Origin: Cytophagales bacterium
GTDB taxonomy: Bacteria > Bacteroidota > Bacteroidia > Cytophagales > Cytophagaceae
Direction: 5' to 3'
Length of the DNA: 46,225 nt
Assembly: GCA_013297765.1 (NCBI GenBank)
Contig: JAAFID010000007.1
Span: 1 to 46,225, forward strand
Position numbers and translations under genes: made by a program. The first letter of the stretch is position 1. Every line of letters begins with the position of its first letter. Of this stretch, positions 5,412-33,968 are shown in pieces. The notes under the pieces are model-generated. The model was not told the origin of the DNA, ran no database searches, and saw only the letters and a program-made list of their open reading frames with translations.

Positions 5412-8400
5412 GTGCAAAATACATTAACAATGAATATAGCAATACGCAATTTCTCAAAAGCAAAAAGTTCCATCATTTTTGGGCTTATCTTTTTTATCTC
5501 TATCATTTTTAGTCAGCAAACTTATGGGCAGTCGTTTTCTCGATTGGCTGTAGGAAACTGGGACAATAACCCAACCAACTTGTGGGCAACTACAGGTGGT
5601 GGTGTTGCAACGAAAACGGTGCCATTGACCGCTGATGATGTGACCATACAAGCAGGCAATACCATCACCTTAAATGCTGGGCAAGCCTATACTTGTAATT
5701 CGTTAGTGGTGACAGGGTCATTGGTTATGGGAGCAGGCTCTAGCCTCACGGTAACTGGCGGTACAGGTGTAACAGGTGCTGGCACTATTAACATGACAGC
5801 CGGTGGAATTATTAATATTGGAGGTACAGGGGGTTTCACTTTTACAGGAACGTTTACGCCAGGTGCGGGTACTATCAATATGAATGGGGCAGCCCAAAGT
5901 ATTCGTGCAGCAACTTACAATAACTTAATATTTGCGGGAAGTGGGGTTAAAACTATTAATGTTGGAACGACAACCATTAGTGGTACATTAACTGGTACGG
6001 CAGGGGTAATTACTACGGGAAGTAACTTGAATATTAATGGCGGTGTAGTAGTAACGGCTGCGACTATGAATGCTACAGCCAATACTGTAACCTATACCAA
6101 TGCTGCGGCAACAAATATATTTCCTGGTGCATACTCTTCTTTAACATTAGCTGCTGGTGGCACAAAAACACTTACTGCCGCTACTACGGTAAATGGAGCT
6201 TTTTCGCTAACTTCCAACTTGAATTGTGCTGGTTTCGACCTTACTTTAGTAGGTGGAACATCTGGTGCTGGTACACTAACTACTGGTGCAAATACAGTAA
6301 CCTATTCGGGAGCTGCACAAAGTGTATTTGCAACAACTTATAACAACATTACTTTTGCTGGTAGCAACAACAAATCACTGCTAGGTGCTGTGACAGTAAG
6401 TGGTACTGCCACAGGTACAGCAGGCAATATTTTGTGTGCAACAAATAATTTGACATTTAATGGAACAGTTTCAGTCGCAGCGGCAACAATTACTACTGGC
6501 CTGAATGTGGTTACCTACAATAGTGCATCTACACAAGATATTTTTTCTGGAACTTATAGTGGTAATCTTGACCTTGCAGGTGCAGGAGCAAAAACATTGA
6601 GAGGTGCTACCACCGTAACAGGCACGTATAGCATGGCTTCTGCATTGAGTTGCGGAGCAAATGCTTTGACTTTGAACGGTACTGTTACCTATACCTCTGG
6701 AGCATTGACTACTGGAGCAAATACAGTAACTTATGGAAGTGCATCAGCCCAAACAGTTATACCGGCTACTTATAGTGGTGCATTAACATTGAATGGGGGA
6801 GGAACAAAATCATTGAGTGCTGCGACTACTGTAAATGGAGCATTTACGCTAACTTCCAACTTGAATTGTGCTGGTTTCGACCTTACTTTAGTAGGTGCAA
6901 CATCTGGTGCTGGTACACTAACTACTGGGGCAAATACTGTTACCTATTCTGCACTTGCCGCCCAAAATGTATTTGCAACAACATACAACAATTTGACATT
7001 TGGCGGCAACAATACCAAAACCCTTTCGGGTGCGGTAATAGTTAATGGAACTAGTACAGTAAACACAGTAACTGTAGCGTGCGCAGCCAATAATTTAGAT
7101 TTGAACGGTGCAGTAAACTGGACAGCAGGAACAATTACGACTACCACAGGCAATGTCACCTATAACAGTGCCTCTGGCCAAGATATCATCCCTGGTACTT
7201 ATTCTTCCAATTTGACAATTTCAGGAGCAGGTGCTAAAACCCTGAGAGGTGCTACTACCGTGACAGGAACGTACAGCATGGCGTCGGCATTAAGTTGTGG
7301 TGTAAATGCATTGACGTTGAATGGAACAGTTACTTATACATCAGGAGCTTTAACAACAGGGGCAAATACAGTAACCTACGGAAGTGCAGCCGCCCAAACA
7401 GTGATACCTGCAACTTATAGCGGTGCGGTAACACTTAGTGGGGCAGGAGCTAAAACTCTTTCTGCTGCTACTACGGTCAATGGTACATTCACCCTTACTT
7501 CTAATTTAGATTGTTTGGGAAATAATTTAATCCTTGGCGGTGGAACTGCTGGAGCTGGTACGCTTACTACTGGTGCAAACACAGTAACTTATTCGGCTGG
7601 TGTAGTTCAATCCATCTATGGAACTACCTATAACAACCTTACACTATCAGGGGCAGCAATTAAGACGTTGGGTGCAGCTACGGTAGTAAATGGTGCTTTG
7701 TTAGTGGGTACTGGTGCTACTTTACAACTAAGTACATTTAATTTTACTGCAAATTCTACTATAGATATTACTGGAACATTGACCGATAATAGTGTTACAG
7801 GTACTAATCTATTTGTAGGTAATGTAAAGGTAAATAGTGGCGGTAATTTTAGCAATACAGGCAATCCGGCTTATACCTTTCAAGGGGGTATTCAAAACGA
7901 TGGTACATTTGCATTGACAGGTACTGGAACAGTAACTTTCAATACATCCTCTCAATCTATCAATGGTATTGGTGCTATGAGTTTTGCAAATGCCACGGTA
8001 CTAATAAATGGTATTACCATAACCAACAGCAACACCAATACCGTAACTATTTCTGCGAGCTTGAATGGTACTAATGCAAGTTCGATATGGGTCAATGCCA
8101 ATGGCTCAAATTTGGTGTATGCCAATGCTACAACCATGTTTGTTGGTGGTGGTTCGCTAGATGCGAGTGCAAATACTAATACTGTAAACTATGGCTTGAA
8201 TGGTGCACAAACTGTTTTAGCTACTACCTATCATAATCTTACGGCCTCAGCTGGTGGTACGAAGACCTTGGCTGGAAATACAACAGTAAACAACAATCTA
8301 GTAGTATCAGCAGGTAATTTAGATTTAGGCACAGTAGCTACTACCTTTTCGGTAAGTGGTAATGCAACATTAGCTTTAGCTTGTAATCTAAATTTCGGAA

Positions 8401-11400
8401 CTATCACCACCAAAACAGTTACTATTGTAGGAGATGTGAGTGGTGCAGGTGCTATCAATACCAACACCTCTTTAGCATTGCATGTATTGAACTTAGGTGG
8501 TGCAAGCAATACCATTGGTGCATTTACTACCTCAGCAGTAGCTAGTGTGGTAAATTATAATAGAGTTGGCAATCAAACGATATTTGCTACGGCAAATTAT
8601 CGAACTTTAAATGTAACAGGAAGTGGCACTAAAACCATTCAAGGTGCAACTACTATCAATAATGACATCACTATTCCTTCTGGAATTACGCTCGCATTAA
8701 ATGCAAATACCCTTACAACTGCTGGCAACATTACCATCAATAATGGTGGTATCCTAGATGTAAATGCAAATGCAACACTAGCCGTAGCCAACACGAGAGT
8801 GATTGCCAATAGTGGAACATTAAGAGTAGTAGGTACACTTGGTAATCCAGCAACTGTTACAAGAAATGCAGCAGGCAATTATTCTATTACCCAAAGTGCT
8901 GTTGGTGCAACCATTCAAGCAAATTTCTTTGCTTTCAATTTCCTCGGTGCAGGTGGTATCGCCATAAGTGATGGAACAATTGATGTTACCAACAATTTTA
9001 GTAACGGTACATTTGCTAGTGGGGTAGGGGCACAGTACTTAAACTTGACTGGTTTAAATTTTTCAGACTTTTCTGCTTCCAATACCGTATTTAATGCTGG
9101 ACCTACTTTTAACGTAACTAGAACATCAGGTACAGGAACGGTGACTTTCCTAGATGCAACTGGAACATTGGCAGGTGAAGTATTTGACAACGACAATGCC
9201 AACCCCGGCACATTGATTAATTGGAGCAACCCAGTAGCAACTTATTATTCACAAGGAACAAATAATTTTAGCCTCCTTACCAATTGGAATAAAGTACCAG
9301 GTGGTGGAGGTGCCAATCCATCGGCAGCTGATTTGACCAATGGTTTGTCCACTTTCATTATTCAAAATACCCATACGGTTACCCTAGATCAAAATATAGA
9401 TGTATTAGCACTAACCGTTGGTGGTGGTACTAGCGGTGCTTTGGTAATAGGTGATGGTACAGATAGAACTTTGCTTTCTCGCCAAGATTTGCAGGTAAAA
9501 GCTGGTGCAAGCATGACCGTTGCTAATATAGATGGTACGCACACTCTAGATATTAGAGGCAACTTTACCAATGCTGGTACTTTCAATATGAGAACCAGTT
9601 TGACCCGTTTTGCAAATACCAATTTCAATGGTACCAACACACAAATATTTGGTCCTTCAACGCCTGTATTTTTTAATGTAGCCTTCAAAACAGGTAGCAA
9701 CACTACAGCAAATGTAGCTCTAGACATAGATGGGAATGTTACTCTAGAGGCTGGTTCTATATTTCAAGATGGCGGACTTACCCATACAGTAGCAGGCGAC
9801 TGGAATGATGGAACGACTGGTGCTATGACAGGAACTGGTACTATTCAATTCAATAGCAATTCTCAATCAGTGGCTTCGGCTTCAACATTTAACAACATTA
9901 CCTTCAATGGTGGTGGTGCTGCCATTACCATTCCTGGAGCCATAACTGCCACAGGAAATTTCTTGGTTACGAATAATACTACGGTATTGGCGAGTGCTAA
10001 TGTGACTCATGCTATTGCTCAAAACTTTACTGTAGATGCAGGAAGTAATTTTAATCATAGTAACGGAACAGTCGATTTTAATGGCACTACAGCACAATCG
10101 ATAGATGGCAGCAATGCAACTTTCTTTGTTGTTAGATTTATCAATGGCGGTGTACCTAACCCAAAAACAATATTAAATAATTTAGTTGCTACTAACCAAC
10201 TTAACATTACAGCCACAGCAGTAGTGAATAGTGCAGGACAAATTGCCACTGCAAATATGGTGGTAGATGGTACTTGTGGTTTTACCAATCAAATCTCTTT
10301 TACAGGTGGCGGCACTATTTCTAAAACAGTTGCAGGTGCAATCAATTTAAGTTCGGCTAACATTATATGTACTGCGGGCAACACTTTTATACAGGTAGGT
10401 AGTAGTGTAACCAGTGCAGGTAACTTTACTATCAATGCAGGAGCACAGTTTATAGTGGATAACAATGCTACGCTTACAGGCGGAGCTGGCAATGTATTTA
10501 CCGCTAACGCTGGTGGCAATTTATATTTAAGAGGCATTAATAATTTCCCTTTTGGATACGGTACATTTAATATTGCAGCAACCTCAACTACTATTTATGA
10601 TGCAGCATTTAACCAAACGGTGCGAGGCGGCCTAAGCATAGGCAATTTAAATTTGAGCAATAATACTAAAACGCTAAGTGGGTCACTTGATATCAATGGA
10701 AACCTAAATTTATCTAATAGTGTTGTTGCAAATTTTAGTGCCTTCTCACATACCATTGCGGGAAATATAAACAATCCTGTAGGTTCTTCTATGACTTCTA
10801 CTAGTACCATTACTTTAGACAATCCTGATGGTGATCAAACGATAGGTGCAGGTGGAACTTATAATTTGGGTACATTGAACTTTACCAGTACCGCCCCTAC
10901 AGCAGTCAGAAACAAATATATCAATACCAATATTACCCTTGCTGGAAGTTTCTCAGCTATCAATTCAGGTGGTACATCTGCACTCATTAATAATGTGTTT
11001 TTGTATGGCAATGTAATTACAGGTCCTGGAGCTGCTTTTGGATTTACTTTAGGTTCAAACGTAAGGTTGCTTACCAGTGGCACTAACACCTTTCAAACTA
11101 CAGTAGCCAGCTTTGGAACAAAGACATTAGATGTTGCGAGTATCGTAAGGTTCAACAATACGACCAATGCTACAGATCAAAGTATTCCATTTGGATTTAG
11201 TTATGGAACCATAGAGCTTCAAGGTGCGGGTGCAGCAGGTGAAACTAATACCAAAACTGCCTTAGGAGCATTGGACATTAATGGAAGTTTCATCAATATA
11301 GCCAATGCTTTTACGTTTATAGATGGTGGCTTTGCCCATACTATTGCTGGCGATTGGAGTGTTTTTGCTGGTGCATATCCTGCTCCTACCTCTACCATTA

Positions 11401-14400
11401 CATTTGACGGAACAACAGCCCAATTGATAGGCCCTGCAAATCAAAATTTAAATTTTAATAACATTGTTTTTTCTGGCTTTGGCTCTTCAAAAACTTTTGC
11501 CAATACCAACAATGGAAGTACCGTTACCATATTGGGCAACTTGACTATCAATACTGGTGTTACGGTAGATATCAACTCTAAAAATGTGAATATAGCTGGA
11601 AACTGGACTTCTACAGGGGTATTCTCGCAAGCTGCTACCACCACATTTTCAGGCACTACAGCCGACCAGACCGTAAGTATGGGGGCATCTAGTAATTTTG
11701 GAGGATTCAATATCAATAAAACTAATGCAAGTTTTAATACCGTTACAGCAAGCACAGATTTACAAATTGCAGGTAGTTTGACTTTGACTGCCAACAATGC
11801 CAATTTTGCTGCGGGAGTACGCACCATTTCTATTGGCAACGATTTTAATTTCAATACAGGTACTACATTTACTACCACAGGTACATTTTTATTCAATGGT
11901 AGTAACCTTTCTCAAGTGTTGAATATGAATACTACAGGTGCAACCTTTCAAAATTTATCTTTTAGCGGTACGCAAATAAAAACTTTAGCAACGAATGATA
12001 TTACTGTGAATGGAAATCTAACCATCATTGGCTCGGCTACATTTAATGGTAACAATAGACAAATTACAGTTTTAGGAAACTGGGTGAATGGAGGAACATT
12101 TCAACATAATTCAACCGTCAATTTTACAGGAAGCTTTCAAAACATTAGTGCTTCTAATTTTAGTTCAGTAAACATTGCAGGTACAAATATAAAAACACTT
12201 TCAGGAAATATTAATTTGAATGGTTCGCTAACGATTGCTGCGGCATCGACACTAGATGTTTCAGCATCTAACTATGCGGTATCACTTGATGGTTCATGGA
12301 CTAATAATGGCACATTTACCCCAAGATTAGGTACAGTAACATTTGGTGGTAATGGTAAAAATATTACCACAGGTGGCATTGGGGCAGGAAAAAGATTTTA
12401 CAACGTTACCTTGTCTATGACTGCAGCAACCGATGCTACATTGGTAGGAGCAATAGATATCGACAATGATTTAATCATTACTTCTGGTAGAATGGTAACT
12501 GGTGCCAACAACGTAAACGTGGGTGGAACGATGATGGTCACAGAGGCATTCAATCAAAACAACAATGCAAGCGTACTTACCTTTGATGCTGGTGTAGCAG
12601 GTATCAAAACATTTAACCCAGGAAATAGCGTAAACAGTGCCTATAGAGCAATAACTGTAAATGGGAATTCGGGATTGATAGTGCAATTGACTACTAACAA
12701 TCTAACAATAGGAAATACTCAGAATCTTACTGTTACCTCTGGTGCCTTCAAATTGAATGGAAAAACATTAACCATGAGCAATGGTAACATTGTAGTTACC
12801 ACAAATGGTACTTTTGATGTAGATGCAGGAGCAAACCTTTACCTAGCCGATAACGCCTCTATCACTAACACTGGAACTTTAAAGATACTAGGTACATCTA
12901 CCAACTATGCAAATATATTAAGAAATGGTGGTACTGGAGCACAAGGCTATACCATCACTCAAACAGCAGGAACTTTCTCTGCACAATACTATTCCATTAG
13001 CAATACCAAAGGTGCAGGTGTAACTATTAGCGGCGGAACTATAGATGCAACTAACAATTTCAGTAACGGAACATTTTCTGGTTCGGGTACATCATACTTA
13101 ACCTTAAATGGATTGAATTACACTGGAACAGCGTCGAGTGTGGTGTTCAATGCAGGACCTACTTTCAACGTGAACCGCACTTCTGGACCTGGAATCATAA
13201 CCTTCAACGCTGCAACTGGCGACTTGGCAGGTCCATTGTATGAAAACGATTTACCAGATGGTGGTGCAGCGACAGGCTTTTGCCAATGGACTGCCTTTGG
13301 AAAAAGATGGGGAAATTTCACAGCAGACAACAACTGGAATACGCCAGGAAACTGGTCGCCTAGTGGAGTGCCTACTTCATCAGACACCATCTATTTAGAT
13401 CACAACATTATTGCCCCAGCAACAGCATATACAGTAAACATTACATCGGCAGATGCAGCTGCTTATAGACTTATTGTAGATAAACAAGGAGGTGCAGGCG
13501 TTATTTCACTTGTGCTTTCAGGTGGAAGAAGCCTCACTGTAGGTGAAAATATAAATATTCTTACAGGAAATATATTGACCGCCACCAATAATACAAATAT
13601 TCTTAACATAGGTGGTAACTGGTCTAATTCAGGTACATTTAACAACGGAAGTTCTACGGTTAATTTTAATGGTGGTGCAGGTAGCTATACCCTCAGCCCC
13701 GGAGGTTCTAGTTTCTTTAATCTGAATATCAATAACGGCGGTACTTACACCCTATCCAGTGCTATAACAATGGCTGGAAGCCTAAATGTGAGCAATGGTA
13801 CACTTAATGCTGGTGCAGGTGGCAATACGGTGAATGTAGCTGGAAACTGGAACAATATAGGAGGTACATTTATACCACAGACAGGCTTGGTGAACTTGAA
13901 TGGTGCTTCGGCACAATCGGTAGCCGGTGGGCCATTTTATGACCTTGCTACTGCAAGTGCTGGGGTTAAAAACATTACTTCATCACTTACCATCACTAGA
14001 AATATAACCATCGGTGCTACCTCTTCTATCAATGCTGGTACAAATATTCTTTTTGTAGGTGGCAACTGGGCAAACAATTCAGGCACTGGGGCATTTACCC
14101 AAACTAGTTTTGGAACAGTGTACTTCAATGGAGGAGCAAACCAAACGATAGACAATGGTACATCGGGAACTACATTTAACAATGTTACGCTTTCAGGCGT
14201 TACCAATCATACTAAATTCTTAGGTAGAAATATTGTAGTTAATGGAAATTTGGACATATCATCGAGTGCAGTTATCACACTTGACGCTGCTGCCTTTACC
14301 ATTACAGGGTTGCCTGCAAATACATTTACAATAAATGGTACAAGTGCAATTATTCTAAGAGGAGTAAATAATTTTCCATCTGGCTTCGGTACCAATACCT

Positions 14401-17400
14401 TGGCAGCAGGTAGTACAGTAAACTATATCTTAAATAGCAACCAAACCATCTTTGCAGCTGCGTATGGTAATCTTACGCTTACGTCTGGTGCAGTAGTGAA
14501 CAATACAAAAACTGCCACTGGTGCCATTGTGGTTCAAGGAAACTTGACTTTAAGCGATGTAAGTGTACAGTTGGATATGAATAATGCCGATATGACTTTA
14601 GCAGGCAATTTGGCATTCCCAACAGCAGGCCGTCAAATTTTGTGGGGTACAGGAATGTTTACTCACAATGGAGCAGGCTGGAATATAGATGTAGATTATA
14701 CAGGCTTTAGTCCTGATTTTGGAAATGTAACCCTGACAGGAAGCGGAACAAAAACGATGCTTGCAAACCTAAACATAGGAGGAAATTTTTCAGTACAAAG
14801 TGGTGTTGCCTTTACCATGAATACCTTTTTACTTACTTCAACAGGTGCAAGCAAAACATTTACTCTTGCCAATGGAGCAACCTTAAATTGCAATGTAGTA
14901 GCACCAGAGGTCGCATTTCCTAAAAACTTTACTACCAATGCTACCAACGCCAATAGCACTGTGATATTAAATGGTGCATCGAATCAACTGGTTTTTGCCA
15001 ATACCACCTATGGTAATCTATATTTGTCTAATAATGCTGTAAATAATACACTTACAGGAGTATTGAATGTAGCAGGTGATTTTTATAATCGTGCAGCAAC
15101 ATTGGTAGATGCAAGTTTTAATATGAATCTGTCTGGTGCGATTAATGATATTAGAAATTATACCCCATCTGTTGGTACTGTTATTACTTTAAATGGTTCC
15201 ACACAATCAATTTATGATGGAGTAAATGGTGCGAACCTAGATTTAGGAAATGTGGTATTTTCAAATGCGGGAACAAAAACTTTGGGTAGCACTGGTGGTG
15301 TAGGTAATATTGTGAATATTTCGGGAAATGTAACCATAGCAAGTGGAGTAACAGTAAACACGAATAGAAATGTAAACTTTTCGGGAAGCACTTGGACAAA
15401 CAATGGTTCGTTCAATCATTCTGCAAATACCTTCACGTTCAATGGCACAATCGCTCAGGCCATCAATCCTGGTCTTGTAAATTCCTACCAACAAGTAGTG
15501 TTTGCAAACACTACCGCTCCTGTAACTTTTAATACTAGAGGCGGTAATTTTGCCAATACTGGTGCTTCAGGTTTTATAATCAATGTAGGAGCAATCGTTG
15601 ATATGGGTACAGCCCTTACACATAACATCAGTGGAACTGTAACCAACAACGGTACCTGGACAACCAACAATGCCAACTTTAACTTCAACGGAGGCAACCA
15701 AACCATCACTACCCCTGTATTTGCGGCACAGAATGTATTTACCAGCACTAATGGTACCAAAACAATGGGTTGCAACTGGTCGGTAAATGATTTGACCATA
15801 GGTATCAATACCACACTTTCGGCTACAGCTACCCCTTATGATTTGACGGTGACTGGCAACTGGACTAATAGTGGAGGATTTAACAATGGTGGAAACACGG
15901 TGACTTTTGAAAGTAATAATACTAGTGCCAAAACAATAACAGCAGGTGGATCTAATTTTAATAACGTTAATTTTAACCAATCGCTTACTGCTGCAAGAAC
16001 TTATACATTACTTTCGCCAGCAACTACATTTGCCAATAATTTGTTGATAGGAAGCGGTGCAACACTGAACTTAAATTCAAATACGCTGACATTAGGTAGC
16101 AACAATGCCTCTACTGAAGCACACCTAATAGCAGCAGGAGCAACACTACAAGTAAATGCAAATGCCAATTTGAGATTCAACAATCAGAATGGCAACTCGT
16201 CACTCACTGTAAATGGGACATTGATTACCGTAGGTACAAGCGGAAACATCGCAACAATTACTCGTGCTACCGCCAACGGAAGGACAGATATTGTAATCAA
16301 TGGCACTATAAAGGCAAATTTCTATTTATATGATTTCATTGGCGACGCAGGTATGGTCATTAATTCTTCAGCTACGGTAGATGCTACTGATAATTTGTCC
16401 AATGGAACTTGGTCAAACATGAACACTGCAGGAGGTGCAGCTAAATATTATTTAGTATTAGAAGCACCAGTAAGCACCAATATAGCAAACGTAACCTTTA
16501 ACTTTGGTGGAACGCCTACAACAGGGGTTCATTACAACGTAAGAAGATCATTAACTGCGACAGGAGTGGTGACTTTTGTAGAAGCCATTAGTGGAATTTT
16601 AGGTTCTTTCCTATATGAAGATGACCCCACAGGCCCTACTAGCCCAAGTGCAACTACTGGTAAATGTTTATGGCCTACTACTGTCCTTGCTACTTGGACG
16701 GGTGCAATAAACAGAGACTGGAACGTTGCAGGAAACTGGAGTCCAGCCACAGTGCCTACCAATGCAATAGATGCACTTATCCCAAATGTGGCTAATGACC
16801 CAATCATTACTAGTGCCAATGCAGTATGTAGAAACATAACTTTGTCTGATGGAATTTTGGGTCTAGACAATGGTTTCGACTTGGTGGTAAACAAAGACGT
16901 AGTTTTGGGTACAGCAGCCAATGCAGCACAGATACAAGTGTTGAATAGCGGTTGCGACATTACCGTATTGGGTGCATGGACTAAAAATGCAAATGCCACA
17001 TTCTCTCATGGCAATGGAAGAGTAACCTTTACAGGTGCTGCTGGTGCGTACACCATCAATCCTGGATTGTCTGCATTCTTTAATCTTGATTTCAATGGCA
17101 GCACTTCCAACTTTAATTTGAATGGTGCAACAGTAAATGTAGATGGTAGCATGAATATTATTAATGGTACCGTATTTCCACTTACTGCCGCCTACAACAT
17201 CAATATCAAAGGTAACTTTACAAATTCAGACCGTTTTAGCCCTGCAACCCCTGGTACTATTACCCTGAGTGGCCTAGCCAATCAATCAGTGACAAATGTT
17301 TCCATTAGAAACTTAGTTGTTTCTGGTACAGGCATTAAAACATTCTTTGCTACAGACACCATCAACGGAACTATAGTAGTAAATAGTGGAGCAACACTAG

Positions 17401-20400
17401 CGGCCAACAATCTAAGTACATTATATATGCTAGGCAACGTAACCATCAATACAGGCGGTAGTTTTGATGATGGTAGTGCCATTCACTATTTTAGAGGTGC
17501 TACTTGGACAGGTACTGGAAACTGGGTTACTAATACTGGAACTATTGTGTTTGATGGTACTGGTCAAAATATTGGCAGTAGTAAATTTAACAATTTGATA
17601 TTGACAGGAAGTGGCAATAAAACATTGAATGGAAATGTTACTTTAAATGCCGATTTTACTTTGAAAACAGGTACTGGAACATTTGTTACCAATACTTTCT
17701 TGCTAAGTTCTGCCACTGGTGCTAGTAATTTTAGCATGGAAGCTGGTACTAATATGAACATTTCAGGTGCAAACAATTGCCCTTCTAATTTCTCTACATA
17801 CACTGTAGATCCTGTTAGTAATACAAATTACAATGCAGCTTTTGATCAAACAGTGGGGGGTATTACTTATGGTAATTTGAATTTGTCAAACATTACAACT
17901 AAAACCCTAGCGGGCGATATTGTGGTAGTAGGCAATCTAAATATTAATACCTCTACACTTGACGTGTCTGCTTCAAATTACACCATTACTGTATCTGGAA
18001 ATTTTGATAACAATAGTACAGGTTCTTTTACAGCTCGCAATGGCACTGTAATCATGACTGGAGCTGCTAACAACGTTATATACTTGGGTGCTGGAGGTGG
18101 TGTGAAAGATTTTTATGATTTGGTAATTGATAAAACCAATGCCTCTACCAATACAGCGATTAATAGAAATCTAAATATATTAAATGACCTCACTGTACTT
18201 ACAGGGGCATACAATACAAACGGCTTTACCACTACGGTAAGCAACAACATGATAGCAACTGCTGGAACATTTACAAATAACGGTGGTGGTGGTTACATTT
18301 TTAACAAACCGAGCGGTGCGGCGAATATTCAAACCAATGGTTCTACGCTTAGAAACCTTACCTTTAGTGGTGGTGCTACCTATACAACTTTAGATAACTT
18401 AACTATTAATGGAGCTTTTACCCAAACTGCTGGCACATTTAATGGCAATGGTAAAACAGTTTCCCTTGGTGATTTTTCTGATGTGGTGAGTATTGCAGGA
18501 ACCTATATCGTGGGTACTGGCGGTAAATTGGTACTTGGGAATAATTGTTCTGTGACTGTCACTAGTACAGGTACAATAGAGATTGTAGGAACACCAGTAA
18601 GCATCGCTCAGGTTACTAGAAACCCCACCTTTGGCGGAACATACAATTTTACAGTAGATGGTATTATTAAAGCTCAATATTATCAATTTGAATACATGAG
18701 CAATTCTGGTATCCAAATTAATGCCTCTGCAACAATTGATGTAACCGACAATTTCAGCAACGGTACATTTACCAATGGACCTACAACTGGTACTATGTTT
18801 AGAATTGAAAATACACAAACACTGACCATAGATAATGTTTCATTCCCTATAAATCCTGGTGCAGGGGTAAATAACGTTACAAAAATAACTGCTACATCTG
18901 GCATAGTTACTTTTAACTTGGCCACAGGTGTCTTTGCTGGAGAAGGTTTTGAAAATGATGGATTTATTCCTAATCCTCCTGGCTTAATTCAATGGACAGG
19001 GCCTATAGTACTTACTTGGAACGGTTCAGTAAGTAGTGATTGGTTTACTGCGGCAAACTGGACAGCCAGCACTGGACCAAATATAGTACCCACTGGTGCA
19101 GAAGACGTAGTGATGACGAATTCTGGAAATCTTCCAGTACTTAATGCAGACGGCGCAAGAGCCAGAAAGCTTACTGTAAATGGGGTGTTTACACTTAACA
19201 CACCCGCATCGCCATTGGCAGACCTTACAGTACTTGGCGATATGTACATTAACACTGGTACGTTAATATCTACAAGCGTAAATGATACTATTATTGTTGC
19301 TGGTAACTGGAATAAATTAGTTACAGGAACATTTAACCCCGGTTCAAGTACAGTAATTCTTAATTCTACTACTGGAACTAGAACAGTAAATAATGGTACT
19401 TCTACATTTAATAATTTAGTAATAGATGGGACTTCGTTATTTCAATTGGCAGCCTCTACGACAATCCTTGGCAATCTGTCTATTTTACAGGGAACTCTAG
19501 ATGTTACCTCATCAGGCTTTAGCATGACAGTACGTGGCAATTGGCTTAACCAAGGTACATTTGTTTCAGGCAATGGCTTTGTGAATTTTAATTCGAATGC
19601 AGCAGGTACACGCACCATCAATAGTGGAGGTTCTGCATTTAATTCATTGTTCTTTTCTCCATCAGCAGCCACTACCTATCAATTAATAGGTAATAATGTT
19701 GCTACAAAATCTAATATTACGATAGGCACTCAGGCTACACTAGCACTAAATGGGCTGAGTTGCTTAGTTGGCGATAACGTAGGCTCTGACAATATTACTA
19801 TAAATGGTACTGTCAATGTAAATGCTAATGCAAGTTTAAAAATGAGCAATAATGGCTCAGTAACTGTAAACTCAGGCGGTACTTTGACAGTAGTAGGTAC
19901 CGATGCTATCAATGTCGCCTCCATGAGTAGGCAATCTGCGGGAAATTATTCTGTAATAGTGAACTCTGGTGGTAATATTCAGGCTCAGTATTATGTAATA
20001 GAATACTTAGGTGTTGGTGGTATGGTTATCAATTCTGGTGCTACCATTCATCCAATAAATAATTTTTCTAGAGGCACATTCTCCAACGGAGTCTTGGGCG
20101 GTACCTATTTAGATGTTAGAAATACATTTGCCGACTTTGTTATGGACAGCGTTATTTTCAATACAGGTGCTACTTTTAACTGTACCCGACTTTCTGGTGC
20201 TGGCGTCATCACCTTCCACGATGCTACAGGTGGTTTGGGAGGTTATTATTATGAGAAGGATGAAGAAAGCCCTGCTAACAGCCCTACTACAGGCTTAGTG
20301 CAATGGACTTATACATTCCCTATTACCACTTGGAGCGGTGCAGTAAGCAGCGATTGGAACAATGTAGGAAACTGGGATAACGGCGTACCAAGCAATAGCT

Positions 20401-22745
20401 TTAGTGCCATAGTGCCAGATGTAAGTGGTGGTTCAAATAGATACCCAGTGCTCACCAGTGGTGCCGATGGTTCGGCTAGAGATTTAACTGTTTTTAGTCC
20501 AGCTACTTTCACTCTTGGTTCGGCTAAAAATCTTACAGTACTTGGGGGTTTGATAGTAAACTCAGGAGCAGCATTTACTGTTAGTCCAGCCTCTGCTTCT
20601 ACCATTACAGTAGGTGATCAGTGGACTACGAACGGTACATTTACCAATGGTGGAGCTTCAAGTGTTGTATTAAATGCCCCATTGGGTGTAAAATCAATTA
20701 CTGCAGGTGCCAACTCATTTTATAACCTTACTATAGCAGCAGGTGCTACGGCAACGTTGCAAACCAATAGCAGTATCACAGTATTGAACAACATGAATAT
20801 TACTAGCGGTGCGTTTAAAATTGCCAATTCCGCACATCTGGTGAAAGTAGCTGGTAACTGGACAAAATCGCCATCGGCTATATTTACTGCTACCTTAGGA
20901 ACCGTTCAGTTAAATAAAACTTCTGGTGTACAAACAATATCAGGAACAGGCAATACTTTCTACGATCTAGATATCAGAGGCGGAAGTACACAAATTGTTA
21001 ATCTAGCCAACGACATCAACATAGATAGAAAACTTTACATTGCATCTGGTTGCACTTTCTCGGCAGGCAGTAGCAATGTAAATATTAAGGGAGACTGGAA
21101 TAATGCTGGAAAACAATTTGTGCCAGGTACAGGTACGGTTTCTTTTACAGGTTCTTCAAATCAAAGTATATCAAAATCTGGAGGCGAATTGTTTAATAAT
21201 ATTACCATCAATAGTACTTCTAGCGTAACGTGTGCTTCTGCAGTTACAGTAAATAAAGTAGTAACACTTACCTCTGGTACATTTGCCTCGGCTGGCAATC
21301 TTACTTTAAATTTAACCACTGGCGGTGCAATTGCCCCCACAGGTTCAGGGTCGTTGTCAGGTATAATGAAAACTGCTAGAACTTTTGTAGAGACGGTTGC
21401 GGGTTGGCACTACATAGGCACTCCGCTTCAAGGCACTACTTCTAATGATGTGCACACTGCCATTCCGCTTACCAACAACAATTGGTATTTCTACAAAGAA
21501 CAAAAAGGCGGTATGTACATACAATTAGGCTGGACTAGAATACTGCCTCTAAGCAGTCTCGCCGCTGAAAGAGCCACGAATATGTCTGCTCAAAGAGCAG
21601 TGGGTGGCCCCACAAATATGGTAGGATATGGTTTGAAATTCCCAGTTGGTACCACTAATCTTACCCTTACAGGTACCTACAATCATGCGGTAACTTCTTA
21701 TAGTTCTGGAGCTTTATCATATACTGCTTATGGCCAAACGTGGGGTGATGGATGGCAATTGCTTTCAAATCCTTATCCATCGCATATAGACTGGAATTTG
21801 GTAACTAAAACCAATATTGACCCTACTATTACTTATTACAATAGGGCATTAGGAACGAATGCTACCTATTTGAAAGGTACTTTCCCATTCCCAGATGTAT
21901 CTTCTAACGGAGGTACACAATACATACCACCAATGCAGGCGTATTGGGTACAGACATTAACAGGCGGAGGGTCAGTTACAGTACCTAATTCTTCAAGAGT
22001 TGTAAATCCATTAGGTACACCACCTACTTTTTACCGCAATGGTGTTTCAAATACCAAAACGTTGAAATTAAGTGTTACCAATACCAAATGCAGTGATGAG
22101 GCAATTGTAAGATTTGGTAAAGGAGCTACAGAGAAATATGATGTAACCTACGATGCTTATAAATTTAGCAATGACAATGCTTGCCCTAATATTTATTTTG
22201 TAGTAGATACCGCTCAATTGGTGATTAATTCGCTGCCAGAAATTGTTGCAGACAAGGCAATTCCTATGAGTTTTGAGTCGGTGGTCGCAGGTGAAAACAC
22301 CATTACCATTAAAGATTTAGACAATTTTGGCGACATGAAAGAAATCGTATTGCTAGACAAACAAACCAATCAGTCTCAAAACTTGTTGCAGAACGATACC
22401 TACAAGTTCACCGCCAGCAAAGGCGATGCTACCGACAGGTTTGTGTTGAACTTTGTACCAGCCGAAGAAGTGTTGGCACTGAACGATAGAGATGATTTGT
22501 CGAAATATGTAAACATCAATAGCTACCAAAACAAAGTGATTGTTGATTTCTCTAAACGCATAGGCGATAATGCCGACATTATCATTGCCAACACGCTAGG
22601 TCAAGAGGTTTACAACAGCGAGAACACCAATATTCGCTCTGGTAGAGTAGAGCTAAACGTAGGCAAAGTGCCATCGGCGGTATATGTGGTAAAAGTAGTA
22701 GTGAAAGGAAAATCGTATGCTAAAGAAGTATTGTTAAGCAAATAA
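5412..22745 (+). CDS. Giant (5777 aa) beta-strand-repeat secreted surface protein/adhesin with T9SS C-terminal domain
   Basis: Uninterrupted ORF; signal peptide (NFSKAKSSIIFGLIFFISIIFSQQTYGQS; start could be the ATG at 5430); repeats of the type TVTYNG..Q.I...TYNNLTLSG.GTKTLSG...VNGNLTI; C-terminal ...GWQLLSNPYPSHIDWN... and YVNINSYQNKVIVDFSKRIGDNADIIIANTLGQEVYNS...VPSAVYVVKVVVKGKSYAKEVLLSK. Confidence 0.93.
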   Translation: MQNTLTMNIAIRNFSKAKSSIIFGLIFFISIIFSQQTYGQSFSRLAVGNWDNNPTNLWATTGGGVATKTVPLTADDVTIQAGNTITLNAGQAYTCNSLVVTGSLVMGAGSSLTVTGGTGVTGAGTINMTAGGIINIGGTGGFTFTGTFTPGAGTINMNGAAQSIRAATYNNLIFAGSGVKTINVGTTTISGTLTGTAGVITTGSNLNINGGVVVTAATMNATANTVTYTNAAATNIFPGAYSSLTLAAGGTKTLTAATTVNGAFSLTSNLNCAGFDLTLVGGTSGAGTLTTGANTVTYSGAAQSVFATTYNNITFAGSNNKSLLGAVTVSGTATGTAGNILCATNNLTFNGTVSVAAATITTGLNVVTYNSASTQDIFSGTYSGNLDLAGAGAKTLRGATTVTGTYSMASALSCGANALTLNGTVTYTSGALTTGANTVTYGSASAQTVIPATYSGALTLNGGGTKSLSAATTVNGAFTLTSNLNCAGFDLTLVGATSGAGTLTTGANTVTYSALAAQNVFATTYNNLTFGGNNTKTLSGAVIVNGTSTVNTVTVACAANNLDLNGAVNWTAGTITTTTGNVTYNSASGQDIIPGTYSSNLTISGAGAKTLRGATTVTGTYSMASALSCGVNALTLNGTVTYTSGALTTGANTVTYGSAAAQTVIPATYSGAVTLSGAGAKTLSAATTVNGTFTLTSNLDCLGNNLILGGGTAGAGTLTTGANTVTYSAGVVQSIYGTTYNNLTLSGAAIKTLGAATVVNGALLVGTGATLQLSTFNFTANSTIDITGTLTDNSVTGTNLFVGNVKVNSGGNFSNTGNPAYTFQGGIQNDGTFALTGTGTVTFNTSSQSINGIGAMSFANATVLINGITITNSNTNTVTISASLNGTNASSIWVNANGSNLVYANATTMFVGGGSLDASANTNTVNYGLNGAQTVLATTYHNLTASAGGTKTLAGNTTVNNNLVVSAGNLDLGTVATTFSVSGNATLALACNLNFGTITTKTVTIVGDVSGAGAINTNTSLALHVLNLGGASNTIGAFTTSAVASVVNYNRVGNQTIFATANYRTLNVTGSGTKTIQGATTINNDITIPSGITLALNANTLTTAGNITINNGGILDVNANATLAVANTRVIANSGTLRVVGTLGNPATVTRNAAGNYSITQSAVGATIQANFFAFNFLGAGGIAISDGTIDVTNNFSNGTFASGVGAQYLNLTGLNFSDFSASNTVFNAGPTFNVTRTSGTGTVTFLDATGTLAGEVFDNDNANPGTLINWSNPVATYYSQGTNNFSLLTNWNKVPGGGGANPSAADLTNGLSTFIIQNTHTVTLDQNIDVLALTVGGGTSGALVIGDGTDRTLLSRQDLQVKAGASMTVANIDGTHTLDIRGNFTNAGTFNMRTSLTRFANTNFNGTNTQIFGPSTPVFFNVAFKTGSNTTANVALDIDGNVTLEAGSIFQDGGLTHTVAGDWNDGTTGAMTGTGTIQFNSNSQSVASASTFNNITFNGGGAAITIPGAITATGNFLVTNNTTVLASANVTHAIAQNFTVDAGSNFNHSNGTVDFNGTTAQSIDGSNATFFVVRFINGGVPNPKTILNNLVATNQLNITATAVVNSAGQIATANMVVDGTCGFTNQISFTGGGTISKTVAGAINLSSANIICTAGNTFIQVGSSVTSAGNFTINAGAQFIVDNNATLTGGAGNVFTANAGGNLYLRGINNFPFGYGTFNIAATSTTIYDAAFNQTVRGGLSIGNLNLSNNTKTLSGSLDINGNLNLSNSVVANFSAFSHTIAGNINNPVGSSMTSTSTITLDNPDGDQTIGAGGTYNLGTLNFTSTAPTAVRNKYINTNITLAGSFSAINSGGTSALINNVFLYGNVITGPGAAFGFTLGSNVRLLTSGTNTFQTTVASFGTKTLDVASIVRFNNTTNATDQSIPFGFSYGTIELQGAGAAGETNTKTALGALDINGSFINIANAFTFIDGGFAHTIAGDWSVFAGAYPAPTSTITFDGTTAQLIGPANQNLNFNNIVFSGFGSSKTFANTNNGSTVTILGNLTINTGVTVDINSKNVNIAGNWTSTGVFSQAATTTFSGTTADQTVSMGASSNFGGFNINKTNASFNTVTASTDLQIAGSLTLTANNANFAAGVRTISIGNDFNFNTGTTFTTTGTFLFNGSNLSQVLNMNTTGATFQNLSFSGTQIKTLATNDITVNGNLTIIGSATFNGNNRQITVLGNWVNGGTFQHNSTVNFTGSFQNISASNFSSVNIAGTNIKTLSGNINLNGSLTIAAASTLDVSASNYAVSLDGSWTNNGTFTPRLGTVTFGGNGKNITTGGIGAGKRFYNVTLSMTAATDATLVGAIDIDNDLIITSGRMVTGANNVNVGGTMMVTEAFNQNNNASVLTFDAGVAGIKTFNPGNSVNSAYRAITVNGNSGLIVQLTTNNLTIGNTQNLTVTSGAFKLNGKTLTMSNGNIVVTTNGTFDVDAGANLYLADNASITNTGTLKILGTSTNYANILRNGGTGAQGYTITQTAGTFSAQYYSISNTKGAGVTISGGTIDATNNFSNGTFSGSGTSYLTLNGLNYTGTASSVVFNAGPTFNVNRTSGPGIITFNAATGDLAGPLYENDLPDGGAATGFCQWTAFGKRWGNFTADNNWNTPGNWSPSGVPTSSDTIYLDHNIIAPATAYTVNITSADAAAYRLIVDKQGGAGVISLVLSGGRSLTVGENINILTGNILTATNNTNILNIGGNWSNSGTFNNGSSTVNFNGGAGSYTLSPGGSSFFNLNINNGGTYTLSSAITMAGSLNVSNGTLNAGAGGNTVNVAGNWNNIGGTFIPQTGLVNLNGASAQSVAGGPFYDLATASAGVKNITSSLTITRNITIGATSSINAGTNILFVGGNWANNSGTGAFTQTSFGTVYFNGGANQTIDNGTSGTTFNNVTLSGVTNHTKFLGRNIVVNGNLDISSSAVITLDAAAFTITGLPANTFTINGTSAIILRGVNNFPSGFGTNTLAAGSTVNYILNSNQTIFAAAYGNLTLTSGAVVNNTKTATGAIVVQGNLTLSDVSVQLDMNNADMTLAGNLAFPTAGRQILWGTGMFTHNGAGWNIDVDYTGFSPDFGNVTLTGSGTKTMLANLNIGGNFSVQSGVAFTMNTFLLTSTGASKTFTLANGATLNCNVVAPEVAFPKNFTTNATNANSTVILNGASNQLVFANTTYGNLYLSNNAVNNTLTGVLNVAGDFYNRAATLVDASFNMNLSGAINDIRNYTPSVGTVITLNGSTQSIYDGVNGANLDLGNVVFSNAGTKTLGSTGGVGNIVNISGNVTIASGVTVNTNRNVNFSGSTWTNNGSFNHSANTFTFNGTIAQAINPGLVNSYQQVVFANTTAPVTFNTRGGNFANTGASGFIINVGAIVDMGTALTHNISGTVTNNGTWTTNNANFNFNGGNQTITTPVFAAQNVFTSTNGTKTMGCNWSVNDLTIGINTTLSATATPYDLTVTGNWTNSGGFNNGGNTVTFESNNTSAKTITAGGSNFNNVNFNQSLTAARTYTLLSPATTFANNLLIGSGATLNLNSNTLTLGSNNASTEAHLIAAGATLQVNANANLRFNNQNGNSSLTVNGTLITVGTSGNIATITRATANGRTDIVINGTIKANFYLYDFIGDAGMVINSSATVDATDNLSNGTWSNMNTAGGAAKYYLVLEAPVSTNIANVTFNFGGTPTTGVHYNVRRSLTATGVVTFVEAISGILGSFLYEDDPTGPTSPSATTGKCLWPTTVLATWTGAINRDWNVAGNWSPATVPTNAIDALIPNVANDPIITSANAVCRNITLSDGILGLDNGFDLVVNKDVVLGTAANAAQIQVLNSGCDITVLGAWTKNANATFSHGNGRVTFTGAAGAYTINPGLSAFFNLDFNGSTSNFNLNGATVNVDGSMNIINGTVFPLTAAYNINIKGNFTNSDRFSPATPGTITLSGLANQSVTNVSIRNLVVSGTGIKTFFATDTINGTIVVNSGATLAANNLSTLYMLGNVTINTGGSFDDGSAIHYFRGATWTGTGNWVTNTGTIVFDGTGQNIGSSKFNNLILTGSGNKTLNGNVTLNADFTLKTGTGTFVTNTFLLSSATGASNFSMEAGTNMNISGANNCPSNFSTYTVDPVSNTNYNAAFDQTVGGITYGNLNLSNITTKTLAGDIVVVGNLNINTSTLDVSASNYTITVSGNFDNNSTGSFTARNGTVIMTGAANNVIYLGAGGGVKDFYDLVIDKTNASTNTAINRNLNILNDLTVLTGAYNTNGFTTTVSNNMIATAGTFTNNGGGGYIFNKPSGAANIQTNGSTLRNLTFSGGATYTTLDNLTINGAFTQTAGTFNGNGKTVSLGDFSDVVSIAGTYIVGTGGKLVLGNNCSVTVTSTGTIEIVGTPVSIAQVTRNPTFGGTYNFTVDGIIKAQYYQFEYMSNSGIQINASATIDVTDNFSNGTFTNGPTTGTMFRIENTQTLTIDNVSFPINPGAGVNNVTKITATSGIVTFNLATGVFAGEGFENDGFIPNPPGLIQWTGPIVLTWNGSVSSDWFTAANWTASTGPNIVPTGAEDVVMTNSGNLPVLNADGARARKLTVNGVFTLNTPASPLADLTVLGDMYINTGTLISTSVNDTIIVAGNWNKLVTGTFNPGSSTVILNSTTGTRTVNNGTSTFNNLVIDGTSLFQLAASTTILGNLSILQGTLDVTSSGFSMTVRGNWLNQGTFVSGNGFVNFNSNAAGTRTINSGGSAFNSLFFSPSAATTYQLIGNNVATKSNITIGTQATLALNGLSCLVGDNVGSDNITINGTVNVNANASLKMSNNGSVTVNSGGTLTVVGTDAINVASMSRQSAGNYSVIVNSGGNIQAQYYVIEYLGVGGMVINSGATIHPINNFSRGTFSNGVLGGTYLDVRNTFADFVMDSVIFNTGATFNCTRLSGAGVITFHDATGGLGGYYYEKDEESPANSPTTGLVQWTYTFPITTWSGAVSSDWNNVGNWDNGVPSNSFSAIVPDVSGGSNRYPVLTSGADGSARDLTVFSPATFTLGSAKNLTVLGGLIVNSGAAFTVSPASASTITVGDQWTTNGTFTNGGASSVVLNAPLGVKSITAGANSFYNLTIAAGATATLQTNSSITVLNNMNITSGAFKIANSAHLVKVAGNWTKSPSAIFTATLGTVQLNKTSGVQTISGTGNTFYDLDIRGGSTQIVNLANDINIDRKLYIASGCTFSAGSSNVNIKGDWNNAGKQFVPGTGTVSFTGSSNQSISKSGGELFNNITINSTSSVTCASAVTVNKVVTLTSGTFASAGNLTLNLTTGGAIAPTGSGSLSGIMKTARTFVETVAGWHYIGTPLQGTTSNDVHTAIPLTNNNWYFYKEQKGGMYIQLGWTRILPLSSLAAERATNMSAQRAVGGPTNMVGYGLKFPVGTTNLTLTGTYNHAVTSYSSGALSYTAYGQTWGDGWQLLSNPYPSHIDWNLVTKTNIDPTITYYNRALGTNATYLKGTFPFPDVSSNGGTQYIPPMQAYWVQTLTGGGSVTVPNSSRVVNPLGTPPTFYRNGVSNTKTLKLSVTNTKCSDEAIVRFGKGATEKYDVTYDAYKFSNDNACPNIYFVVDTAQLVINSLPEIVADKAIPMSFESVVAGENTITIKDLDNFGDMKEIVLLDKQTNQSQNLLQNDTYKFTASKGDATDRFVLNFVPAEEVLALNDRDDLSKYVNINSYQNKVIVDFSKRIGDNADIIIANTLGQEVYNSENTNIRSGRVELNVGKVPSAVYVVKVVVKGKSYAKEVLLSK
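6206..7440 (+). repeat. ~643-bp in-frame tandem near-duplicate within the giant gene
   Basis: GCTAACTTCCAACTTGAATTGTGCTGGTTTCGACC... at 6206 recurs at 6848 (offset 642). The TGTYSMASALSCG(A/V)NALTLNGTVTYTSGALTTGANTVTYGSA segment at 6618 recurs at 7263 (offset 645). Confidence 0.9.
8814..9300 (+). repeat. Junction module copy 1 of the giant protein
   Basis: GTLRVVGTLGNPATVTRNAAGNYSI...IQANFFAFNFLGAGGIAISDGTIDVTNNFSNGTF...FNAGPTFNVTRTSGTGTVTFLDATGTLAGEVFDND...INWSNP. Confidence 0.8.
12872..13386 (+). repeat. Junction module copy 2
   Basis: GTLKILGTSTNYANILRNG...FSAQYYSISNTKGAGVTISGGTIDATNNFSNGTF...FNAGPTFNVNRTSGPGIITFNAATGDLAGPLYENDLPDGGAATGFCQWT...NWNTPGNWSPSGVP. Confidence 0.8.
16215..16770 (+). 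repeat. Junction module copy 3
   Basis: GTLITVGTSGNIATITRAT...IKANFYLYDFIGDAGMVINSSATVDATDNLSNGTW...GSFLYEDDPTGPTSPSATTGKCLW...TWTGAINRDWNVAGNWSPATVP. Confidence 0.8.
18570..19110 (+). repeat. Junction module copy 4
   Basis: GTIEIVGTPVSIAQVTRNP...IKAQYYQFEYMSNSGIQINASATIDVTDNFSNGTF...TSGIVTFNLATGVFAGEGFENDG...IQWTGPIVLTWNGSVSSDWFTAANW. Confidence 0.8.
19878..20400 (+). repeat. Junction module copy 5
   Basis: GTLTVVGTDAINVASMSRQSAGNYSV...IQAQYYVIEYLGVGGMVINSGATIHPINNFSRGTF...FNTGATFNCTRLSGAGVITFHDATGGLGGYYYEKDEESPANSPTTGLVQWT...TWSGAVSSDWNNVGNWDNGVP. Confidence 0.8.
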
Positions 22746-32162: not shown

Positions 32163-33968
32163 ATGAATATCTTTACCAGCCTACGCCTTAGTGCTATTGT
32201 ACTACTCAGCTTTTTATTCACCACCAGCTACGCTCAAAAGGAAGAAGACTATTTTATTACAGTTTGGGATTTGTCGTTGGATAAAAATAGTAATACTAGT
32301 ATAGAATTTTCAACTTTAACCACTGGAGACGTTATTTATACTTGGGAAACTATTCCTGCAGGGCAATCGGGTAGAGGGGAAATTATTGTTAGTGGAATTC
32401 AAGTCTCGATTTCTAATTTGCCAATAGGTAAAACCATTAAATTAAAATTAGCTCCGCAAAATTTAAAGGGTTTTTATTCTAATTATCGAGATAATTTTAA
32501 ATTAATTGATGTTAAACAATGGGGTAAAGCAGTGTGGAGTAGCCTAGAAGGAGCATTTGTCAAAAGTAGAAATTTAAATATTTCGGCAACGGATTTGCCA
32601 AATTTAACTTTGGTAAAATCCCTCAACCGTATGTTTTATCAGTGTTTTAAATTAAATGGCCCTTCAAACATTAACCAATGGAATACCCAAAATATACTTG
32701 ATATGGCATATATGTTCGCATATACTGAATCCTTTAATCAACCTATTGGAGACTGGAATACTCAGAATGTAATAAATATGGAGGGCATGTTTAGAGAAGC
32801 TAAATCTTTTAATCAACCTATTGGAAACTGGAATACTCAGAGTGCAATAAATATGGAGAATATGTTCGAAAATGGTAAATTATTTAATCAACCTATTGGA
32901 AACTGGAATACTCAGAATGTAATAAATACGACGGGTATGTTTGCATTAGCTAAATCTTTTAATCAACCTATTGGAAATTGGAATACTGAAAATGTGCTGA
33001 ATATGAACGGTATGTTCATGTATGCTGAATCTTTTAATCAACCTATTGGAAACTGGAATACTCAAAATGTAATAGATATGAATGGTATGTTCTATAATGC
33101 TAGTTCTTTTAATCAACCAATAGGAAATTGGAATACAAGCAAAGTAACTCAAATGAACGGCATGTTTAGAGAAGCTAAATCTTTTAATCAACCTATTGGA
33201 AACTGGAATACTCAAAATGTAACAAATATGGAGGGTATGTTCTATAATGCTAAATCATTTAATCAACCCATTGGCAATTGGGATACCCAAAATGTAACCA
33301 GTATGAGTGAAATGTTCCGTAATGCACTAACCTTTAACCAACCAATTGGTAAATGGAATACCAAAAATGTTGCTTTTATGGATGGTATGTTTTACGGAGT
33401 AAAGTCCTTCAACCAGCGATTAGATTCTCTGACATTAAATCAAGCAGTTCATTTTGGTGGATTTTTAGCAACGATTGATTTTACTACATCAATTTACCTG
33501 CTATTTATGCTTGACTCATGCGGCATGGATTGTGAAAACTATTCTAACACCCTCATAGGATGGGCAAATAACCCAAATACACCAACAAACAAAGAATTTG
33601 GTGCAGCAGGTCTAAAATACACCTGTCTCGCCCAAGCAGCCAGAGATATCCTCACCAAACCTGTAGCCCAAGGTGGAAAAGGCTGGACAATATATGGCGA
33701 CGCACTTTCCACAGAAGATTGTGGTCTTATCACTGCCGAGGAAGAAGGAGTAGACAAACCAGTACTTTCTATCTACCCCAACCCAGCGCAAGACAAATTA
33801 TTCTTAAAAAATGCTATTACAAATACAGCTTACAAAATCATTGATGGCTTGGGCAGAGAAGTAAATGCGGGCACTTGTGAAAATGAGGAAATTTCAATTG
33901 CTACTTTACCTTCTGGTTTGTACACTTTGCGGTGTGGTAATAGGTACTTTACTTTTGTGAAAGAGTAG
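32163..33968 (+). CDS. BspA-like/DUF285 repeat surface protein with T9SS C-terminal domain
   Basis: Signal peptide (LSAIVLLSFLFTTSYAQ); repeats FNQPIGNWNTQNVTNMEGMFYNAKS; C-terminal LSIYPNPAQDKLFLKNAITNTAYKIIDGLGREV...LPSGLYTLRCGNRYFTFVKE. Confidence 0.92.
   Translation: MNIFTSLRLSAIVLLSFLFTTSYAQKEEDYFITVWDLSLDKNSNTSIEFSTLTTGDVIYTWETIPAGQSGRGEIIVSGIQVSISNLPIGKTIKLKLAPQNLKGFYSNYRDNFKLIDVKQWGKAVWSSLEGAFVKSRNLNISATDLPNLTLVKSLNRMFYQCFKLNGPSNINQWNTQNILDMAYMFAYTESFNQPIGDWNTQNVINMEGMFREAKSFNQPIGNWNTQSAINMENMFENGKLFNQPIGNWNTQNVINTTGMFALAKSFNQPIGNWNTENVLNMNGMFMYAESFNQPIGNWNTQNVIDMNGMFYNASSFNQPIGNWNTSKVTQMNGMFREAKSFNQPIGNWNTQNVTNMEGMFYNAKSFNQPIGNWDTQNVTSMSEMFRNALTFNQPIGKWNTKNVAFMDGMFYGVKSFNQRLDSLTLNQAVHFGGFLATIDFTTSIYLLFMLDSCGMDCENYSNTLIGWANNPNTPTNKEFGAAGLKYTCLAQAARDILTKPVAQGGKGWTIYGDALSTEDCGLITAEEEGVDKPVLSIYPNPAQDKLFLKNAITNTAYKIIDGLGREVNAGTCENEEISIATLPSGLYTLRCGNRYFTFVKE
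32733..33480 (+). repeat. Ten 75-bp (25-aa) DUF285 tandem repeats
   Basis: FNQ(P/R)-encoding start at 32733, 32808, 32883, 32958, 33033, 33108, 33183, 33258, 33333 and 33408, all exactly 75 bp apart. Confidence 0.95.

Follow-up and report, generated by a model that had tools for sequence, protein, structure and literature searches.

The window analysed here, a stretch of 46,225 nucleotides from a Cytophagales bacterium (GenBank assembly GCA_013297765.1, contig JAAFID010000007.1), contains an open reading frame of 5,777 aa at positions 5412-22745 of the forward strand, and all features of the giant protein given below lie on this strand. The frame opens at a GTG, an ATG at 5430 being the likelier start, and its N-terminus, read from the sequence by eye, is hydrophobic and signal-peptide-like, the apparent signal peptide ending near aa 41. 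At the other end, a variable C-terminal region (21342-22511) that shares 17% identity with orthologues, with 40% gaps, is followed by a weak match to the T9SS C-terminal sorting domain PF18962 at 22527-22727 (25 bits against a cut-off of 27; a second score for the tail was 20.3 bits against the same cut-off). The host genome holds 119 matches to this sorting tail in 3.56 Mb. A conserved operon partner was considered and rejected: in the window the giant gene is flanked by housekeeping genes, and its neighbourhood looks different in the relatives inspected (a visual comparison of ORF sizes and ends), so that the giant protein probably acts without one.

The original prediction placed five copies of a conserved module of ~170 aa within this protein, and all five are indeed present where it put them, the GT(L/I) of copy 1 starting at 8814. 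In pairwise blastp, all pairs of copies align with 32-42% identity over 205-296 aa (E 2e-16 to 5e-39). The shared motifs occur overall in the proposed order. The last of them, TWxG..S.DWN..NW..VP, stands out in copies 3-5 and can still be recognised in copy 2, but its form in copy 1 has diverged strongly; it occurs a sixth time at the mature N-terminus (5535-5759). Divided at the short linker after "LIQW", the proposed module proves to consist of two parts with separate distributions, an upstream half A and a downstream half B, and the five copies are accordingly designated junctions J0 to J4.

Half A comprises the GTLxxVGT...LIQW part (139-155 aa) and is located at 8808-9224 in J0, 12867-13289 in J1, 16209-16673 in J2, 18564-18995 in J3 and 19872-20306 in J4. 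All five are supported by HMM and by profile search of the genome, in addition to pairwise blastp and, for J3 and J4, structure prediction. A leave-one-out HMM built from four copies recovers the fifth at 88.6-121.3 bits, compared to a best score of 4.4 bits among 200 shuffled giants; the half A HMM found no sixth half A in the giant protein, and a profile search of the whole 3.56-Mb genome confined half A to the giant gene. The statement that no named domain covers the copies is upheld, given that neither the window pieces nor 70 half As gave a Pfam or NCBIfam match over cut-off. Half A also gave no match in a tblastn search of plasmids. It was detected in 6 of 59 relatives at E<=1e-3, in 7 of 395 genomes of the class and in 8 of 396 of the phylum, each count including the window's own genome; the other genome of the same genus lacks it, which makes the gene patchy. 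The identity of half A to the window is 0.44-0.53, above the 0.34-0.41 (34-41%, with 2-7% gaps only) of the solenoids when compared with orthologues. On sequence grounds, half A is an unannotated family.

Half B comprises the TWxGxxSxDWNxxxNWxxxVP part plus its continuation (76-91 aa) and is located at 9234-9506 in J0 (divergent; 64 bits, being itself part of the profile), 13299-13568 in J1, 16683-16910 in J2, 19005-19259 in J3 and 20319-20567 in J4, the last four by profile search and J3 and J4 also by structure prediction. The N-terminal copy at 5535-5759 directly follows the apparent signal peptide, has no half A before it and starts the first segment; it scores 16.8 bits with a profile of internal half Bs only, where the best of 400 shuffles reached 6.3, and the N-termini of several relatives score 10-62 bits with the same profile. 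Half B is present in 36 of 59 relatives (E<=1e-5), and the proteins that carry it vary widely in size. Apart from a weak tie to the G8 domain (PF10162), it is unannotated as judged by profile comparison: of 70 half Bs, 5 reach E<0.01 against G8, the best of them 1.4e-5, and the N-terminal half B of the window reaches 19.2 bits over aa 68-191, below the cut-off of 22.9. Half B sits at the start of the solenoid in each segment, a position that it shares with G8, which lies at the start of a beta-helix. Most half Bs, however, do not match G8, the domain found in TMEM2, and the window's own stays below its cut-off. One of the T9SS-tail matches of the host genome belongs to C225, a frame of 2,065 aa in which a weak half B is found as well.

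As originally claimed, the copies separate solenoid arrays, and six segments can be delimited in the window. Segment 1 (5760-8807) lies between the N-terminal half B and the half A of J0; segment 2 (9507-12866) spans the J0-J1 spacing of 1,353 aa; segment 3 (13569-16208) spans J1-J2 (1,115 aa), segment 4 (16911-18563) J2-J3 (784 aa) and segment 5 (19260-19871) J3-J4 (436 aa); segment 6, the last solenoid (20568-21341), starts with a half B and has no half A after it. Hydrophobicity autocorrelation, applied in search of a common simple repeat period behind the spacings, gave weak peaks and no shared period.

AlphaFold, supplied with 26 orthologues, predicts the unit from half B to half A around segment 5 (aa 4526-4967) as all-beta, with 50 short strands in 442 aa, almost no helix, a pLDDT of 94.7 and a pTM of 0.90. 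A longer stretch crossing two junctions (A-B-solenoid-A-B) was modelled with a pLDDT of 90.8 and a pTM of 0.67, and its main pLDDT dips (63-80), at model residues ~180-210 and ~610-640, coincide with the two A/B boundaries; pTM and pLDDT are the two measures from which a hinge is read here, and a rod of 793 residues lowers pTM for other reasons too. Given this difference in pTM and the position of the dips, the module is better described as two pieces, one that finishes a segment and one that begins the following segment; from the predictions we interpret half B as capping the start of a segment and half A as forming the end of one. Each B-to-A stretch is thus predicted to fold as one beta-solenoid segment. 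We consider it likely that the copies are the boundaries at which segments meet in a secreted rod built of several beta-solenoids, with half A ending and half B starting the segments.

Two other readings of the same predictions deserve attention. The solenoid could run uninterrupted through the junctions as one continuous rod, with A/B an irregular conserved stretch, perhaps a ligand-binding ridge. Beta-strands on both sides of the boundary and the overall pLDDT of 90.8 agree with such a rod, and the polar and aromatic residues retained in half A are candidate ligand binders, but the pLDDT dips and low pTM at the A/B boundary, together with the behaviour of half B as a start at the N-terminus and in other proteins, make it unlikely. 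We regard as improbable, and somewhat more so, the idea of one independent cap or linker domain of ~170-230 aa inserted between solenoid arrays. It accounts for the occurrence of A and then B within ~20 aa at almost all junctions of the giants, and the module corresponds to no named family; nevertheless, many proteins have a half B but no half A, a half B stands alone at the N-terminus, the last segment has a B without an A, and the B-to-A unit is predicted to be more rigid than the stretch crossing from A to B. The "cap" in the cap/linker/reset domain first suggested fits each half, and a single linker or reset domain is probably not what the junction represents.

Foldseek searches of the PDB returned weak matches only (best 1.6e-3 and 2.8e-2, with low TM-scores, none at E<=0.001), and the leading matches are nearly all parallel beta-helices, such as antigen 43, the S-layer protein RsaA and autotransporter passengers. 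Weak as these matches are, a right-handed beta-helix would be no more than a provisional reading of the precise fold and handedness of the segments. Foldseek against viral models yielded weak phage beta-helix matches that were uninformative and were set aside. Among the weak fold matches are also PL6 alginate lyases and chondroitinase B, as would be expected if the giant were a polysaccharide-acting beta-helix enzyme and not a structural rod; this is very doubtful, however, as no catalytic family was matched in Pfam or NCBIfam and thousands of Thr/Asn/Gly-rich solenoid residues of fixed length are unexpected for a lyase.

The junctions belong to a conserved family of giants. A scan of GTDB genomes yielded 26 loci with half A, whole-genome searches added more, and many of these relatives are giants of ~3,900-5,400 aa; over orthologous stretches the relatives are 28-46% identical to the window. 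Their order is B...A-B...A-B, with the close succession of A and B at nearly all junctions and with a last segment that usually lacks an A; one locus (L035), whose fifth half A has no half B following it, is an exception. The J1-J2 spacing is 1117.5+-16.2 aa (n=22), J2-J3 is 793.2+-17.6 aa (n=25) and J3-J4 is 434.7+-6.3 aa (n=25), that is, an SD/mean of 1.4-2.2% across ~25 loci, the n of 22-25 referring to related sequences and not to independent events, in classes binned after inspection. Six genomes from the phylum search (G451, G455, G459, G450, G513 and G447), which played no part in defining these classes, have spacings of 1120-1166, 762-796 and 425-433 aa by match coordinates. The window's segment 2 is an extra N-terminal segment, found also in Carboxylicivirga linearis (L045; 1,364 aa) and in G304 (L076; 1,363 aa).

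Several further loci touch on this family. Shorter relatives of 1,703-2,989 aa (L080-L086) mostly have two half As, arranged B-A-B-A-B where complete and with other spacings, and may represent a small ancestral form. Within the same family, one genome (L079; G003, C370) has a related gene in short frames (an ORF at 2675 and the next 198-aa frame) that keep their half As; it is a decayed or badly assembled copy. A large ORF of 1,841 to 2,154 aa, cut by the end of the locus, lies upstream of the giant at L102 (G451), L107 (G304) and L108 (G447), and a half-B protein lies directly downstream of the giant in G304 (L106).

Orthology by position is evident from the half A tree, for which 96 half As were labelled by spacing alone and then placed. 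The tree needs 5 label changes overall, the minimum possible, against a mean of 55.4 for shuffled labels; J1, J2 and J3 each need one change, J4 is less clean with 4, and several inner branches are weak. Half As group by position across Cytophagales, Bacteroidales and genomes labelled Chlorobiota, a label taken from MAG titles. Judged from these sequences, the junction arrangement appears to be older than the divergence of the lineages and not to have been homogenised, unless the whole gene passed between them. That the five copies are recent internal duplications whose positions carry no functional meaning is hardly credible: the homology of all copies speaks for it, as does the grouping of J0 with J1, which would fit a single later duplication, but copies group by position across lineages with the fewest possible label changes and the spacings differ between junctions while staying nearly constant within each, so that the tree rejects it for J1-J4 and it survives only for J0.

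Taken as segment boundaries, the junctions suggest how the giant may be built. Half A (~145 aa) would be the conserved terminal part of a solenoid segment and close its C-terminal end, half B (~80 aa) would be a Trp-rich start covering the N-terminal end of the next segment, and the short linker between them would likely act as a hinge. The protein would be exported by Sec and T9SS and would consist of fixed-length rigid rods linked in a chain, in this genome six of them with five joints, and would have an extended length of ~100 nm if each coil comprises ~26 aa in three strands and rises 0.48 nm. Its role could be that of a surface stalk, an adhesive fibre or an envelope coat.

Repetitive surface giants usually change length fast through gain and loss of repeats. 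Solenoid proteins of 4,300-5,800 aa with near-constant segment lengths at ~40% identity suggest selection on geometry. We tentatively propose, at a little short of even chances, that these proteins are an ancient, undescribed family of T9SS-exported molecular rulers, whose solenoid rods, constant in length to 1.4-2.2% across Bacteroidota classes and Chlorobiota-labelled genomes, are joined by an end-cap/start-cap hinge. If so, selection would act on exact length or on the positions of bends, as it might if the rods serve to span or tile the cell envelope. The A/B boundary also offers a way to divide such giants into foldable, expressible segments, and the half A and half B families would help to parse many hypothetical proteins of Bacteroidota. 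No described family of this kind was found in the literature searched, which covered few subscription papers.

Secreted beta-solenoid giants are already known in kind; the boundary element and the conserved segment lengths are new. The nearest solved folds by Foldseek, although weak, are those of antigen 43 and the autotransporter and two-partner-secretion adhesins, which possess a long secreted parallel beta-helix, a feature that is predicted for the giant. Unlike these adhesins, the giant has no Pfam match to an autotransporter beta-barrel or TPS domain along the whole protein, and its secretion signal is T9SS-like; SprB repeats and adhesin or lectin families were also without a Pfam or NCBIfam match. 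Giant1-4 of the Gram-positive Apilactobacillus are likewise secreted and very large, and beta-solenoid parts are predicted in them too, but there the beta-solenoid is an N-terminal domain and the rod consists of alpha-helical repeats (PMC12863079); unlike in the giant, no A/B junctions are described in the accessible part of that report.

A closer parallel is provided by RemA/RemZ, T9SS cargo of Flavobacterium johnsoniae, since half B matches the chain named RemA in PDB 8gl6 (8gl6_D residues 890-967, E 3.8e-8). Both carry a half B, and RemA/RemZ is a T9SS substrate, as the giant may be to judge from its weak tail; they differ in that RemA/RemZ in the PDB has no half A, which matched no PDB sequence at all. 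The substrate trapped in 8gl6 is RemZ, a RemA homologue, in which good resolution is confined to the C-terminal domain (PMC10994853), leaving half B without a solved structure there. Two other proteins of the window also carry T9SS tails, namely a glucose/sorbosone dehydrogenase (PF07995) at 272-1885 and a 601-aa DUF285 (PF03382) protein at 32163-33968, the gene of the latter containing a 75-bp tandem repeat at 32728-33370 (8.6 copies, 78% match).
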